A stretch of DNA of 51,661 nucleotides from Geoalkalibacter sp. (GCF_030604225.1 NZ_JAUVWH010000005.1:1-51661), one strand, 5' to 3'; counted from the first letter of the stretch, positions 4,624 to 40,748 are shown. The notes: generated from the letters alone by a model not told the origin. Translations and numbers: made by a program.

Positions 4624-5948
4624 CCCTTGATTCCGCCGAACAGACGCATGATGTCGTTGTAGAAGGCCAGCACCATGAGCAGGATGAGCAGCATCAAACC
4701 GATCTGCTGGGCAATTTCACGGGTGCGCGGCGATAGGGGCCGGCGAAAAATCAACTCGAAAAGATTAAAGATGATGTGCCCGCCATCCAGAATCGGGATC
4801 GGTAGCAGATTGAGAATCCCCAACTGAATGCTGAGAAAGGCCAGCACCGAGAGAATGGCCGCCAGATCGGTCTGGGCGGCCTGTCCGGCGATCTGCACCA
4901 CGGTGATGGGGCCGCCGATGTTTTTCGCAGAAACATTGCCGCTGAACAGTTTCTGAATAAAGACGATGGTCAGCTCGATGAGCTCGATAGTTCGCTCGGC
5001 GCCGGCCTTCACCGACGCGACAAGGCCGTAGCGCTTGGTCACCAGGTCTTGCGCCGGCGCAATGCCGATCAGATAGTCATCATCGCGCTGGCCGCGCTGG
5101 GCGGTCAGGGTGAATTCCAGAAGCTCGCCCTCGCGCTCCACCACCACGATTTGCGCTTCGCCCTGACCTTTCTGAATGGCGATGCGCAGGTCGTACCAGG
5201 AACGGATGGGTTCCTCCCCCACCTGCTTGATCAGATCGCCTTTGCGCAAGCCGGCGGCTTCCGCGGGCATGCCCAGGGCGAGGCCGCCGATGCGCGCCTC
5301 CTGGTCGGGAAACAGCCCCAGTCCCTGGGTTTCCAGATGTCCGGCGTCGGCGGCAACGCGCAGGCGCAGGCGTTCGCCATTGCGCAGTACCTCAAACTCC
5401 AGGGGCGCGCCGGCAAAGGCGATGAGCTTTTTATTGGCCTCGCTCCAATTGGGAACCGCCTCGCCGTTGATCGTCTCGATGCAATCGCCCGACGCGAAGC
5501 CGGCCTGCGCGCCGCTGCTGTCGGCCACCACGTAGCCGATGCAGGGCCGCTCGTCGAGAAACGCCGGCATGTTGACGCCGACCAGAAAGGCCAGGGGCAA
5601 GACGAGAAACGGCAGGGCCAGATTCATCAGAGGGCCGGCGGCTACGATGGCCACCCGCTTGGCGGGAGATTTGGCGGCGTAGGAGCGCTCGCGTTCCTCG
5701 GCCGTCAGCTCGCCGGTTTCGCCGTTTTCGCCGCTGCCCTCGCCGAGCATCTGCACGTAGCCGCCCAAGGGCACCGCGCAGATCATGTATTCCGTTTCTC
5801 CCCATTTGCGCGACACCAGCCGCGGCCCGAAGCCCAGGGAAAACTTCAACACCTTGACGCCGGCCATTTTCGCCACGCAGAAATGGCCCAACTCATGAAT
5901 GAACACCAGAATCCCCAGCATGATGATTCCGGCAACAATGGTCACCAT
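4620..5948 (-). CDS. rseP: Site-2 intramembrane zinc metalloprotease RseP
   Basis: This inner-membrane protease performs regulated intramembrane proteolysis, for example of anti-sigma factors, and clears signal-peptide remnants. It is 442 aa. The zinc motif HELGH is at residues 18-22 in the first transmembrane helix. Two PDZ-like regions occupy roughly 110-280, with GXXSGAQAGF- and GMPAEAAGL-type carboxylate-binding loops. The second metal-ligand motif, PIPILDGGH, is in the third helix near residue 390. It sits 11 bp downstream of dxr and overlaps tsaB by 4 bp. This position in the dxr-cdsA-uppS block is classical. Confidence 0.95.
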   Translation of the reverse strand: MVTIVAGIIMLGILVFIHELGHFCVAKMAGVKVLKFSLGFGPRLVSRKWGETEYMICAVPLGGYVQMLGEGSGENGETGELTAEERERSYAAKSPAKRVAIVAAGPLMNLALPFLVLPLAFLVGVNMPAFLDERPCIGYVVADSSGAQAGFASGDCIETINGEAVPNWSEANKKLIAFAGAPLEFEVLRNGERLRLRVAADAGHLETQGLGLFPDQEARIGGLALGMPAEAAGLRKGDLIKQVGEEPIRSWYDLRIAIQKGQGEAQIVVVEREGELLEFTLTAQRGQRDDDYLIGIAPAQDLVTKRYGLVASVKAGAERTIELIELTIVFIQKLFSGNVSAKNIGGPITVVQIAGQAAQTDLAAILSVLAFLSIQLGILNLLPIPILDGGHIIFNLFELIFRRPLSPRTREIAQQIGLMLLILLMVLAFYNDIMRLFGGIKG

Positions 5949-36436: not shown

Positions 36437-36718
36437 TCAGGATTTGTCGAGGTTGCTGCCGCAATGGCCGCAGAAGCGCCAGTCCGCCTCGATGAAGGCT
36501 CCGCAGCGACAGCGCGGCAGCACTGGCGGGCGCGCCTTGAGAAACAGCAGCACCGCGAGGGCGATGCCGTTGCCCGCCAGCAGCAGTCCCCCCGGCAGGC
36601 TCAGGCGCGTGAGGTTTTCCAGGGTGCAGCGGCCCCAGCAGAACAGCCAGGTGTTATAGGCCAAAACCACCGCCACCACCACCCCGCCGAAAACCAGCAT
36701 GCCCGTCAGCCGTTTCAT
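36437..36718 (-). CDS. Two-helix membrane protein with C-terminal zinc ribbon
   Basis: The 93-aa product has two predicted transmembrane helices (about 5-22 and 41-60) with an inter-helix loop carrying Cys27 and Cys31 (FCWGRC). A C-terminal zinc-ribbon-like module has Cys70, Cys72, Cys83 and Cys86 (CRCG ... CGHC). The start overlaps the preceding zinc-ribbon gene by 4 bp (ATGA), so the two are coupled. It is the last gene of the metal-linked operon. Function unknown; the domain call is from the Cys spacing only. Confidence 0.8.
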   Translation of the reverse strand: MKRLTGMLVFGGVVVAVVLAYNTWLFCWGRCTLENLTRLSLPGGLLLAGNGIALAVLLFLKARPPVLPRCRCGAFIEADWRFCGHCGSNLDKS

Positions 36719-36978
36719 GCCCAGCCCTCCCCACTGTCACTGCCGCAATGGGGACAGTACCGCAGCAGGCGCGCCTTGAGCCGCCCGCAGAAAGCGCAGC
36801 TGACCCGCAGCAGCTGGGCGCAGGAAGGACACACCAGCCAGTCGCGCGACACCGCTTGCCCGCAACCGCAGCGACACTGGGCGTCGGCGCCCGCCAGGCG
36901 CGTCTGCTCGCGCTTTTCCATCTCCCCCAAAATCAGGTAAGAGACACCGGCCAGAGTCAGCAGAAACAGCAGAACCAC
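36715..36978 (-). CDS. Single-helix membrane protein with double zinc ribbon
   Basis: The 87-aa product has one N-terminal transmembrane helix (about 2-18) and then a Cys-rich domain. Cysteines are at 35, 37, 39 (CRCGC), 50 and 53 (CPSC), 61 and 64 (CAFC), and 75 and 78 (CPHC), suggesting two zinc-ribbon knuckle pairs (DZANK-like) plus one extra Cys. It starts 14 bp after the ABC ATPase stop. Topology would put the Cys domain in the cytoplasm or periplasm depending on orientation, which I cannot decide. Function unknown. Confidence 0.8.
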   Translation of the reverse strand: MVLLFLLTLAGVSYLILGEMEKREQTRLAGADAQCRCGCGQAVSRDWLVCPSCAQLLRVSCAFCGRLKARLLRYCPHCGSDSGEGWA

Positions 36979-36991
36979 GGATGCTCCCTTC

Positions 36992-37699
36992 TCAGGCCGC
37001 GCTCGAGGTCGCGACGCGGCGCAGGCTCTCGTCCGCCACCACCAGGCCGTCGCGCAGTTGCACCATGCGATGGAAATAGCGGCGGTTTTCCTCGTTGTGA
37101 GTCACCATGACGATGGTCTGCCCCTCCTGGTTGAGGCGGGTGAGCAGTTCCATGATTTCCTCGCTGGTGGCGGTATCGAGGCTGCCCGTCGGCTCGTCGG
37201 CGAGCAGCAGCGGCGGACGGTTGACCAGGGCGCGCGCCACGGCGACGCGTTCCTGCTCGCCGCCCGAAAGCTGCGAGGGCAGATGCGCCGCACGGCCGCC
37301 CAGCCCCACCCGCTCGAGCACCTCCAGGGCTTGGGCGCGCTTTTGCGCAGCGGGCATCTTCTTCACCGCCAGGGGCAGCATGACGTTTTCCAGGGCGGTC
37401 AGATAGGGAATCAGATTGAAGGACTGAAACACGAACCCCAGGTACTCGCGCCGAAAATCCGCCAGCTTCTCGCCGGAGAGGGCGTAGAGGTCGATGCCGT
37501 CGACGCTCACCTTGCCGGCGGTGGGATGCGCCAAGCCGCCGAGGATGCTGAGAAAGGTGCTCTTCCCCGAGCCCGACTGCCCCATCACGCCGAGAAACGC
37601 CCCTTCCTCAACCCGCAGATCAACACCGCGCAGGGCCTCGACGCGATCGGCATCGCTTTCGTAAATCTTGGTCAAACCGGTAATTTCGATAAAAGGCAT
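36992..37699 (-). CDS. ABC transporter ATPase (MacB/LolD type)
   Basis: The 235-aa ATPase has Walker [11 protein letters not shown], the Q-loop [11 protein letters not shown], signature [15 protein letters not shown] and Walker [13 protein letters not shown], followed by the H-loop [12 protein letters not shown]. The TGSLD and QSFNL sequences place it in the MacB/LolD/FtsE subfamily, whose members drive mechanotransmission or lipoprotein export instead of ordinary import. Its FtsX-type permease lies 194 bp upstream, separated by a repeat element. Confidence 0.92.
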
Positions 37700-37711
37700 G
37701 AAAGGCTGTCC

Positions 37712-37739
37712 TTTGTCATTGGTCCTTGGTCATTGGTCA
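37712..37739. repeat. Four tandem heptads (TTGGTCA-type)
   Basis: Consecutive 7-mers TTTGTCA, TTGGTCC, TTGGTCA and TTGGTCA lie immediately before the ABC ATPase gene (transcription order). This is a short tandem repeat within the otherwise non-coding gap between permease and ATPase. Confidence 0.75.
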
Positions 37740-37759
37740 AAACCCGACAAACCCAGGCA

Positions 37760-37868
37760 GGGGACGCGGATTTTCAGGATGAACGCGGATTAGAATCAAT
37801 ACCGATAAATTCGGCATTTTCCGCCCGATCCGCTGTGATCCGTTTGATCAGATGTGATCTGCGTCCCC
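37760..37868. repeat. Palindromic REP/MITE-like intergenic element
   Basis: Terminal inverted repeats GGGGACGCGGAT (37760-37771) and ATCTGCGTCCCC (37857-37868) match at 11 of 12 positions. Inside, GCGGAT and ATCCGC copies and the small hairpin CCGATAAATTCGG add further symmetry. The 109-bp unit fills most of the permease-ATPase gap (37700-37893) and contains no ORF. It resembles a dispersed intergenic repeat; copy number cannot be tested here. Confidence 0.6.
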
Positions 37869-37893
37869 AAAGGGTATTCCCGGCCTTCGTCGC

Positions 37894-39051
37894 TCAAAGA
37901 GCCCGCAAAGCTTCCGTCGGGTCCATGCGGCTGGCGTGCAGGGCCGGGTAGAGGGAGGCCAGGGCGCCTACCGCCACCGCCAGCAGGATCGAGCCGCCCA
38001 TGAGCAGGGCGCTCCATTCGAAGTGCGGGTGCTCCGTGGCGAGAAACGGCAACAGGGCACGGGTCGCCCCGATTCCCGAGAGGTAGCCGAGGATGCCCGC
38101 CACGAGACTTACAATGAAGGCTTCAAGCAGGATCAGGCCGACCACGTGGCCGCGGCGAAAGCCCAGGGCGCGAAAGATGCCGATCTCGCGGGTGCGCTCG
38201 TTGACCGAGCCCATCATGGTGACGAACACCACCAGGGCGCCGATGAACACCACCACCCCGGCGACGCTCAGAGACAGCAGGCGGAACTGATCGAGGGCGT
38301 GCATGCGGCTCTTGACCACCTGCTGCATGGCGATGACCCGCGTGTAGGGCAGCACCTGGGCAATCTGCTCGACGATCTCCTCCACCGGGCAGTCGGCGCA
38401 CAGGGCGGCCACTTCCACCAGGGAGATATTGTCCTGCTTGCCGAGCAGTTGCTGCGCCATCCCCAGGGATCCGATGAGCATGCGGTCGTCCTGCGCTCCG
38501 GTGGGCTGCAGCAGGCCGACCAGGGTAAAGGTGCGGCCGTTGATTTCAAGCTGTTGTCCCATGCGCAGATCCAGGGCGGCGGCCACCTCGCTGCCGGCGA
38601 CCAGTTCGTCGTCGGCGGCCACGGGCCGGCCGTCGATCACCCACCAGCGCTTGAGAGCGAATTCCACCTCGCGATCCACGCCCATGAGCACCACGCGCTG
38701 CTCGCCGACCCGCACCGCGCCCAGCACCTTGGGCGCCACGGCGGCGATGTTGCGCCGCTCGGGAATGGTACGGATCAGGGGCAAGTCCGCCTCGCGGATC
38801 GGTTCGTACTGCATGGCGACATCGCCCACGGTAATGCCGCCGTAGGAGATGGCCAGATCGTCGCTGCGCGGCGTGATGAGAATGTTGGCGCCGAACTGGT
38901 CGAGTTTGTGCTCGGTTTCCATGGTCAGGGCCTCGGTGAGGGACACCAGGGTCACCACCGTGGCGATGCCGACCAGCAGGCCGATGACGAGAAAGGCCAT
39001 GCGCGCCTTGCGCCGGCGCAGATTATTCAGGGCAATGGTTTTAAGAGTCAT
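37894..39051 (-). CDS. FtsX-like ABC permease (MacB type)
   Basis: The 385-aa protein has the four-helix MacB/FtsX layout: one N-terminal transmembrane helix (about 15-40), a large periplasmic MacB-PCD-like domain (about 45-255) and three C-terminal helices with the conserved NERTREIGIFRALGFRRGHV segment. The periplasmic domain includes a pair of cysteines in AALCADCPVEEI. It starts 12 bp after the DUF2318 gene. Such permeases in DUF2318-linked loci (for example the Campylobacter P19 iron locus) accompany metal handling. Confidence 0.88.
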   Translation of the reverse strand: MTLKTIALNNLRRRKARMAFLVIGLLVGIATVVTLVSLTEALTMETEHKLDQFGANILITPRSDDLAISYGGITVGDVAMQYEPIREADLPLIRTIPERRNIAAVAPKVLGAVRVGEQRVVLMGVDREVEFALKRWWVIDGRPVAADDELVAGSEVAAALDLRMGQQLEINGRTFTLVGLLQPTGAQDDRMLIGSLGMAQQLLGKQDNISLVEVAALCADCPVEEIVEQIAQVLPYTRVIAMQQVVKSRMHALDQFRLLSLSVAGVVVFIGALVVFVTMMGSVNERTREIGIFRALGFRRGHVVGLILLEAFIVSLVAGILGYLSGIGATRALLPFLATEHPHFEWSALLMGGSILLAVAVGALASLYPALHASRMDPTEALRAL

Positions 39052-39062
39052 GGGTCATCCGT

Positions 39063-39575
39063 TCAGCGTGCCGCGGCGAAATACCAGGAACCGGATTGCA
39101 GGGCCGCCACAGGAATCAGCACCTGCCCGTCGCGCACCACCCGCTCCAGGGGCGCCGGATTGCAGCCACCCTTGACTTCGTTGATCCGGTCCGAGGCGAA
39201 GCGCTGGTCGCAGGCGTTGCACACCATCACATCGCCTTCCTGGCGATAGCCCTTCTTGTCCCGGTAACAGACGTCGCAGGTGTCGAACGCCGCGCGAATC
39301 ACGCCGTCATTGCTCTTGAGCACGAAAAAATTGATGGTGGTGGCGCCGTCGCGATAACTGAAGAAATGCGCCTTGCCGTCGCTGACCTGGGATGCGGGGA
39401 TGGCGACCACGCCATCCTTGGCGCTGACGGCGGGATACCCGCCCGCGCCGCCGAACAGTCCCCAGGCCGCGGCGGCCAGCGCCACGGCCAAAACCAGGGC
39501 GACACCCAGGATCAGCGGCCGCTTGCTGCTTGTCTGATGTTCAAACTGGGCTTTCTTTTCCTGACGATCGGTCAT
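39063..39575 (-). CDS. Membrane-anchored DUF2318 (FtrD-like) Cys protein
   Basis: The 170-aa product has one N-terminal transmembrane anchor (about 20-41) and an exported domain with FDTCDVCYRDKKGYRQEGD, VMVCNACDQRF and INEVKGGCNP. The Cys positions are 100, 103, 119, 122 and 138. This is the DUF2318 pattern, named FtrD-like or Fe-S-containing membrane protein and usually found with Ftr1/P19 iron systems. No Ftr1 or P19 gene is adjacent here. Metal or cluster binding is inferred from the cysteines. Confidence 0.85.
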   Translation of the reverse strand: MTDRQEKKAQFEHQTSSKRPLILGVALVLAVALAAAAWGLFGGAGGYPAVSAKDGVVAIPASQVSDGKAHFFSYRDGATTINFFVLKSNDGVIRAAFDTCDVCYRDKKGYRQEGDVMVCNACDQRFASDRINEVKGGCNPAPLERVVRDGQVLIPVAALQSGSWYFAAAR

Positions 39576-39646
39576 CCTTGCAACTCCTGTTTATGTGCGA
39601 GTTAAATTTCTTGCCTGCCGAAAAACCCTGTAGGGCGCAACCTGTC

Positions 39647-40489
39647 TCAGCAACACCCGCCGCAGCCGCCCTGCCCGCTCAGGCGCGCCTTAAGCCCCGC
39701 GTCGAATACCGTCACCGGAACCCGGGTCGCCACGTCCCGCAAACGGCGCTCGACCAGTTGTTGGCGTTGGCGCGCATCGGCCTCGCCCTTGGCCAGGTTC
39801 TGTTCCACGTGACGGGCGATCACCAGATCGGCCCTGAGGCGCTGCTCGTAGGCTGCCACGCTGCCGAAACGCGCCGCGACCAGGGCATCGAAGCCAGGCA
39901 TGGCCTGGCGCATTTTTTCCAACTCCCGCGCCAGGTCTTCATCGCCCACATCGACCTGGTGCGCAGCGGCATCACCCAGCAGCAGTTCGCGCTGCACCAG
40001 CTCCTGCCAGGCCCAGGCATCGAGTCCCGCCGGGACCAGGCCCTGCGGGTAGCCGTTGGAGAGCCGGGCGAGATGTTCGGCAAATTCCTCGCGCGACACC
40101 AGCCGCTCACCGATCTGGCCGACGTAGCGCAGGGCCAGTTCATTGTGCGCCTGCTCTCGCGCCTGGATTTCCCCGCGATCCAGGACATTGACCAACTGCG
40201 CGGGGTAACCGGCCGCGGTCACGGCCGCGGCGATCCGCCCGCCATCGACGCGCGTGGGGTCAAACGCCACCCGGCTGCTGCCCGTCGCCACATCGACCTC
40301 GACGGAGGCCACGCCGTCCAAGGCGCCGGCGGCCGTTCGCACCCGCCCGACGCAGGCGCCGCAGGTCAGGTTGTCCACCTTGAGTTCGGCCACCGCCGCC
40401 GCGTCCGGGGCACGCTGCCCAAACAGGGTACTTCCCACGGCCACCGCCGCCACCAGAACCAGAGCCGATACGATCATGCGCGATTTCAT
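39647..40489 (-). CDS. Exported HMA-domain protein with SurA-like region and Cys tail
   Basis: From ATG 40489 the 280-aa product has a signal or anchor helix (about 5-23), an HMA ferredoxin-like domain (about 35-100) with metal-binding Cys43/Cys46 (NLTCGACVGRV), and a helical region (about 115-265) resembling SurA-type periplasmic chaperones (DEDLARELEKMRQAMPGF). It ends in GGCGGCC. AAAGG lies 10 bases before this start; upstream in-frame ATG 40510 would add MKKGCGC but has no ribosome binding site. It is the first gene of the metal-linked run. A copper or other soft-metal role is inferred from the HMA motif. Confidence 0.82.
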   Translation of the reverse strand: MKSRMIVSALVLVAAVAVGSTLFGQRAPDAAAVAELKVDNLTCGACVGRVRTAAGALDGVASVEVDVATGSSRVAFDPTRVDGGRIAAAVTAAGYPAQLVNVLDRGEIQAREQAHNELALRYVGQIGERLVSREEFAEHLARLSNGYPQGLVPAGLDAWAWQELVQRELLLGDAAAHQVDVGDEDLARELEKMRQAMPGFDALVAARFGSVAAYEQRLRADLVIARHVEQNLAKGEADARQRQQLVERRLRDVATRVPVTVFDAGLKARLSGQGGCGGCC

Positions 40490-40598
40490 GCAGCCACAGC
40501 CTTTCTTCATCAACGTCAGGGATCAGGATTTGATCTTGCGGCGGGAAGGGATGAACAATCACGGACCAGCCCGCGCGGAACTATTCCTATCAGTTTTT

Positions 40599-40604
40599 GT
40601 GCCA
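40599..40604 (-). promoter_or_regulatory. TGGCAC -24-like element upstream of HMA gene
   Basis: The minus strand reads TGGCAC followed 5 bases later by CTGAT. The first half matches the sigma-54 -24 box, but the -12 GC is missing, so this is only a weak candidate. The 40514-40785 gap otherwise holds the DUF2059 terminator and two TGTGGAA copies 21 bp apart. Confidence 0.2.
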
Positions 40605-40748
40605 ATCCGTCCCGATTCGCTCAAGACCTGAAAATCACTCGAACTTCAGTTTAGGGAAGAAATCCGGCGGAACGCGGAAAGTGTGGAAAATCCTGTAGGT
40701 GCTGTGGAATATTCTTCAAACAGACGGGCGAGATAAAGGGCGAAGGAC

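Follow-up and report, generated by a model that had tools for sequence, protein, structure and literature searches.

DUF2318 proteins are known from the Fet iron cluster (PMC10783030), and their genes have been found almost always within clusters of the Fet type (PMC6083913). FetA, FetB/C and FetD are required for growth at low iron, and the function and the substrate of the ATP-binding cassette (ABC) part of this system are called unclear by the authors (PMC10783030). In gut Firmicutes, DUF2318 proteins and a fusion of HMA, DsbD and DUF2318 are members of the inferred CsoR copper regulon (PMC4938975). Here, a related cassette of six adjacent genes is described, located on the minus strand at positions 36437 to 40489 of a stretch of 51,661 nt from Geoalkalibacter sp. 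(the window). Judged from its promoter and its genomic context, the cassette is interpreted as a copper/silver (soft-metal) envelope stress module, which would be switched on through sigma54 together with a CusCBA-type efflux operon (probability approximately 0.6). The wider statement that it is a metal-stress module of the Cus regulon is quite probable.

All six open reading frames listed in the initial annotation were recovered at their positions. They encode, in this order, an HMA/SurA-core protein (39647–40489), a DUF2318/FtrD-like protein (39063–39575), an ABC permease of the FtsX/MacB type with a length of 385 amino acids (37894–39051), an ABC ATPase of the LolD/MacB class (36992–37699) and the zinc-ribbon membrane proteins 1 (36715–36978) and 2 (36437–36718), all on the minus strand. 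The families named for the first four genes are supported by Pfam, complemented by homologue alignment, AlphaFold model and fold comparison (HMA/SurA), alignment and model (DUF2318), gene order and tree (permease) or family models and gene order (ATPase). For the two zinc-ribbon proteins, the assignment is based on sub-threshold Pfam matches and alignment.

For the analysis of conservation, homologues were searched in 136 genomes of the order, and genes were called on 40 fetched loci and the window. Named genomes were scanned for a wider set, which yielded 466 relatives and 80 loci, and gene order and Fet components were tested on 84 loci. The HMA protein and DUF2318 are adjacent in dozens of the 136 genomes. 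The conserved gene order, which recurs in dozens of sediment bacteria, is HMA, DUF2318, FtsX, ATPase, zinc ribbon 1 and zinc ribbon 2, and the flanking genes vary from one locus to the next. The trio DUF2318-FtsX-ATPase was found in identical order in 38 of the 40 fetched loci and in the window, covering about 20 families; in two fetched loci DUF2318 is absent or located on a separate contig. Among the 84 loci, the trio is ordered in 76, with the HMA/SurA gene in front in 38 of those, and it occurs in Desulfobacterales, Desulfobulbales, Desulfovibrionales, Deferribacteres, Nitrospirota, Acidobacteria and others. This conservation of the block is far beyond chance, and the concern that the neighbourhood might be confined to this genome falls away, since it is conserved outside it. 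In Desulfobacterales cassettes (L133, L149, L157, L175 and similar ones), an additional gene encoding about 147 amino acids, without a Pfam match, is located between DUF2318 and the permease.

The Pasteurella locus FTR1-P19-DUF2318-FtsX-FtsX-ABC was used as the Fet comparator in tblastn searches with a positive self-hit control. The FetA query matched all 84 cassette loci and the FetD query 78 of them, and FetB and FetC are related over their full length to the cassette permeases, with an identity of about 20–25%. The kinship to the DUF2318-FtsX-ATPase part of the Campylobacter-type Fet clusters, as proposed in the initial annotation, is confirmed by these homologous proteins and their same order, both in the Campylobacter fetMP-fetABCDEF cluster and in the Pasteurella locus. 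The absence of Ftr1 and P19 is confirmed as well: with the Pasteurella queries, neither FTR1 (FetM) nor P19 (FetP) was detected in any of the 84 loci. The cassette is best placed outside the Fet system, because these two defining components are absent. It also has a single permease, in contrast to the two different FtsX permeases (FetB and FetC) of Fet. The annotated FtsX ABC pair consists of one permease and one ATPase. The cassette permeases form one group (100/98 support) apart from the Fet and from the MacB-like proteins of their own genomes, in a tree in which the Fet and MacB branches are long and the deep placement is unsure. Further differences to Fet are the free-standing DUF2318 protein with the motif CxxC-x15-CxxC-x15-C, the added HMA/SurA and zinc-ribbon proteins and a sigma54/NtrC switch common to Cus efflux.

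A pared-down Fet-type system for the uptake or reduction of iron, in which DUF2318 and the ABC part would provide an iron permease from another locus, e.g. FeoB, with electrons or energy, would account for the homology to FetA, FetB/C and FetD as components required in low iron (PMC10783030), but it does not fit to the missing FTR1 and P19 and to the single permease in a separate clade. A description of the cassette was searched for in the open-access literature (DUF2318 with FtsX; copper-responsive sigma54 regulators, Geobacter) and none was found. The cassette is real and widely conserved, undescribed in the open-access literature searched, and best regarded as a new version built around the DUF2318-FtsX-ABC unit.

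The region upstream of the HMA gene contains two copies of the palindrome TGYRGAATATTCYRCA and a −24/−12 element, identified by motif search on the minus strand. The first upstream activating palindrome, TGAAGAATATTCCACA, is located at positions 40703–40718 and has one mismatch to the consensus, and the second, TACAGGATTTTCCACA, follows at a distance of 21 bp (40682–40697). The sigma54-type element TTGGCACAAAAACTGATAGG was found at positions 40586–40605, resulting in the layout of a sigma54/NtrC-type promoter with upstream palindromes and a −24/−12 element. The palindrome is present upstream of 49 of 78 cassettes (0.27 in shuffles) and a strict −24/−12 element upstream of 33 (0.43 in shuffles). 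In 47 of 53 palindrome-bearing cassette loci, the −24/−12 element is found within 170 bp downstream, compared to an expectation of 0.49. The spacing of the palindrome pair is mostly 21–22 bp across the loci and 33 bp in Deferribacteres, and the distances between palindrome and −24 cluster near 101, 113, 123 and 136 bp. Since the motif was discovered in cassette promoters, this test is partly circular, which does not apply to the scans for Cus operons and regulators described below. Sigma70 promoters and terminators were about as many in the region as in shuffles.

The palindrome was then searched for in 22 genomes, allowing one mismatch and using the reversed pattern as control. The number of sites ranged between 0 and 6 per genome, and the control gave zero. 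Outside the cassettes 43 sites were found, ten of which are located at most 400 bp upstream of TolC-CusB-CusA (CusCBA-type) operons in eight genera and seven upstream of one histidine kinase/NtrC-type regulator pair, compared to 0.009 and 0.002 expected sites, respectively; these expectations assume uniform placement and take no account of intergenic preference or common ancestry, but the excess is very large. A −24/−12 element was identified in all 12 Cus promoters examined, two of which, from the genus of the window, have weaker palindromes. In a same-genus genome, the distance between the palindrome and the Cus operon is 1.5 kb, and the transposase-like genes in this interval (L209, 6082–7316) may perhaps separate the Cus pump from its regulator. 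The cassette shares with CusCBA and its regulators the palindromes, the promoter type, presumably the regulator and the soft-metal theme. It differs from CusCBA in being an ABC-type envelope system and not an RND pump. The regulator itself is of the NtrC type (sigma54), unlike CusR of E. coli, which is of the OmpR type.

Some further observations concern possible members of this regulon. A palindrome pair with 22 bp spacing adjoins a small double-zinc-ribbon protein (L228 and L229, around position 5000), which may be another member. Cus operons end with His/Met-rich, weakly YtkA-like proteins (L265, 11311–11916; L259, 899–1525; L118, 9068–9595), and proteins of the same cluster come after the zinc-ribbon genes in several cassettes.

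Orthologues of the NtrC-type regulator were identified in 83 of the 136 genomes, including the genome of the window (contig C13). Regulator and cassette occur together in 59 genomes, the cassette alone in 9, the regulator alone in 24 and neither of them in 44, corresponding to an odds ratio of 12 uncorrected for phylogeny. In nine genomes, all of them without the cassette, the regulator and heavy-metal RND genes are at most about 5 kb apart, and in Desulfobacterales and Deferribacteres a kinase/NtrC pair of the same families adjoins the cassette. The sensor region of the kinase is weakly DUF4118-like. No strong palindrome was found at the kinase gene of the window genome itself. There, TlpA-, CcdA-, Fur-, FeoB- and DtxR/FeoA-like genes come after the kinase/NtrC pair (L260, 2688–10747; CcdA and Fur assigned by eye), and the regulator pair is often located 2–6 kb from a Fur-FeoB cluster. 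In several genomes the regulator operon also encodes an HtrA-type protease and TlpA. With the TlpA/CcdA/Fur/FeoB-like and HtrA-type genes next to the regulator pair, a broader connection to the envelope or to iron is conceivable. The conserved regulator cluster may represent an unstudied link of metal stress, thiol redox and iron.

With regard to the metal, a plasmid of Pelobacter propionicus carries the gene order CsoR-CopA-...-HMA-DUF2318-FtsX-ABC-M23-HK-NtrC-TolC-CusB-CusA (HK, histidine kinase). Heavy-metal RND genes are located at most 10 kb from the cassette in 10 of 68 genomes (1.9 expected) and in 8 of 35 genera (1.8 expected). The Firmicutes CsoR regulon is similar in that HMA and DUF2318 are linked under inferred copper control, but no FtsX-ABC unit was reported there and the regulator is different (PMC4938975). 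Taken together, the P. propionicus island, the RND enrichment and the Firmicutes regulon favour copper/silver. Copper P-type ATPases are not enriched near the cassettes (two compared to 1.2 expected). FeoB is not enriched either (two genomes compared to 0.9 expected), which argues against iron uptake of the Fet type, as do the promoter switch common to heavy-metal efflux and the partner with a copper-type HMA domain. FeoB/Fur-like genes upstream of the cassette in few loci are in line with such an iron function, which is nevertheless judged to be quite unlikely. On genomic and regulatory grounds, copper/silver efflux stress is more likely than iron; of the copper- or iron-linked metal handling in the envelope suggested by the initial annotation, metal handling is retained, with copper or silver as the favoured metal and iron less favoured.

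The HMA domain could also indicate copper delivery to cuproenzymes or their assembly (oxidases, nitrous oxide reductase), and one locus group runs on into apparent cytochrome c assembly genes (by eye). Co-regulation with an efflux pump is expected in excess of the metal, not in demand, and none of the recurring neighbours in the loci examined was recognised as a cuproenzyme gene, which makes this function very unlikely. Stress handling is preferred to supply because the cassette is co-regulated with an efflux pump; the delivery or assembly role of the initial annotation is thus narrowed to envelope metal handling under stress.

Several observations weigh against the copper/silver stress module under Cus control. 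The cassette palindrome with at most one mismatch was found in only 12 of the 22 genomes, and the Cus operon of the window genome lies at a contig end, where its promoter is unreadable. The regulator frequently adjoins TlpA-CcdA-Fur-FeoB-like genes, with FeoB at a distance of at most 10 kb in 26 genomes, which would fit iron or thiol stress and is in favour of the Fet-type iron function discussed above. The model TIGR00914 spans Cus- and Czc-type pumps, and for this reason the call of Cu/Ag versus Zn/Cd is based on the CusB/CusA-like relatives, the CsoR-CopA neighbours and the HMA domain. Finally, the relay mechanism proposed below is derived from domain analogy.

The HMA/SurA protein consists of an N-terminal membrane anchor or signal, an HMA domain (CGAC), a SurA core and a C-terminal Cys tail (GCGGCC). 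Its start MKSRM (40489) equals that of a same-genus relative, with further in-frame starts at 40510–40513. The HMA domain matches PF00403 (E 5e-13) with a CxxC conserved among the aligned homologues, and this part of the AlphaFold model (predicted local distance difference test, pLDDT, of 89) resembles a copper-binding domain with a Z score of 15.5. The SurA_N_3 match (E 1.3e-5) is just below the gathering score; the SurA-like region noted in the initial annotation is confirmed by the structural comparison of the model, in which the SurA core reaches a Z score of 13.2 over 145 residues at 2.9 Å. The predicted protein thus has the core fold of the SurA chaperone, but it lacks parvulin domains, is fused to an HMA domain and ends in a Cys tail; parvulin isomerase domains were detected neither by Pfam nor as a further domain in the AlphaFold model. 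The SurA insert is limited to Desulfuromonadales-type loci. It is considered optional, because in some lineages the HMA protein is short, with a C-terminal Cys tail (GCGGSCC) and no SurA part.

An envelope protein quality control system, with HMA-SurA as a metal-gated chaperone for damaged Cys-rich or haem proteins and the MacB/Lol-type ABC part extracting or releasing clients, would explain the clear structural match of the SurA core and the HtrA-type protease and TlpA in the regulator operons. Several lineages without the SurA part keep the HMA domain, the Cys tail and the rest, so that this part is not essential to the system, and the quality control function appears unlikely. Type VII ABC systems (MacB, LolCDE and FtsEX), which usually act on periplasmic proteins, are in agreement with it.

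A selenoprotein HMA was considered, since the NCBIfam UxxU models match below the cut-off, and rejected: the aligned homologues have CxxC and the main matches contain no in-frame TGA. A search for the HMA/SurA protein on plasmids gave matches to the HMA domain only. In a genome without a DUF2318 match, an orphan HMA/SurA protein (L067, 7398–8267) adjoins a NitT-like ABC transporter and an apparent nickel carbon monoxide dehydrogenase gene (by eye).

The DUF2318 protein (FtrD-like/PF10080, E 1e-32) has one N-terminal helix, and its CxxC-x15-CxxC-x15-C motif is present in all 80 relatives aligned. Its model (pLDDT 87) resembles Rieske ferredoxins with a best Z score of 9.8 over 101 residues at 2.9 Å (Foldseek 3e-4); residues 55–165 of the model align to 2–109 of the 1vm9 chain. 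C100/C103 and C119/C122 are presumably located roughly at the Rieske ligand positions, as estimated from the aligned ranges and the numbering of the Rieske ligands. A Rieske-like fold with CxxC/CxxC is therefore predicted on the basis of the model, as the Pfam scan of 48 members at E 10 gave DUF2318 itself and weak zinc-finger matches, with no Rieske family among the 25 families shown. The protein differs from Rieske proteins by its CxxC/CxxC instead of CxH/CxxH and by a fifth conserved Cys. No solved DUF2318 structure was found by sequence.

The permease matches FtsX (E 1.6e-22) and MacB_PCD (E 7.6e-17), and its length is nearly always 385 amino acids across the 40 fetched loci and the window. 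The ATPase matches ABC_tran (E 5e-33) with LolD and MacB as closest families. This MacB core with an FtsX domain and a LolD-like ATPase resembles MacB, LolCDE and FtsEX; the differences are an ATPase on a chain apart from the MacB-type permease, the absence of a MacA-like adaptor and the metal-binding protein partners. Neither a MacA-type adaptor nor a TolC partner was found among the six cassette genes. Zinc-ribbon protein 1 (called in 24 of 41 loci) has one hydrophobic helix and a double zinc ribbon, and protein 2 (28 of 41 loci) has hydrophobic helices, a conserved region with N-x-W and C-x-G-x-C and a C-terminal zinc ribbon. The pair is limited to Desulfuromonadales-type loci. A dispersed repeat in the gap between permease and ATPase (37730–37895, minus strand), outside the conserved cassette, matches the genome at 23 places, mostly over short stretches (25–45 bases).

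For the copper/silver stress module, the following mechanism can be proposed. The DUF4118-like histidine kinase may sense metal-related envelope stress, and the NtrC-type regulator would bind the two palindromes and activate pump and cassette together via sigma54, as suggested by linkage and co-occurrence. The anchored HMA protein could capture Cu(I) or Ag(I) by its CxxC site and Cys tail, and the SurA-like part would dock it to either a client or the ABC partner. The putative Rieske-fold four-Cys DUF2318 protein may pass on metal or electrons, and the zinc ribbons may help in assembly. At the MacB-type permease and its ATPase, cytoplasmic ATP could drive periplasmic movement, releasing the metal or resetting the chaperone, so that the metal would be handed on to efflux. 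Mechanotransmission to periplasmic partners is the mode of action of MacB-class ABC proteins, and a relay or reset is for this reason preferred over metal transport through the permease. Such an ATP-driven metal relay is tentative. It is more doubtful whether the cassette is a new metal-handling machine, in which an ATP-driven mechanotransmission ABC system, acting on a copper chaperone anchored in the membrane and on a four-cysteine protein with a Rieske fold, would move or redox-reset periplasmic Cu(I) within a sigma54 regulon common to CusCBA, with related cassettes in several phyla.

So far, iron uptake is the only context in which DUF2318-FtsX-ABC units have been studied. A version free of the iron permease and tied by its promoter to copper/silver efflux suggests a separable envelope module and may offer a simpler system for finding its function. 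The Rieske fold predicted for DUF2318 and the fusion of a SurA core to a copper chaperone are testable predictions, and the palindrome together with the sigma54 switch would define a metal-stress regulon in Desulfuromonadales.

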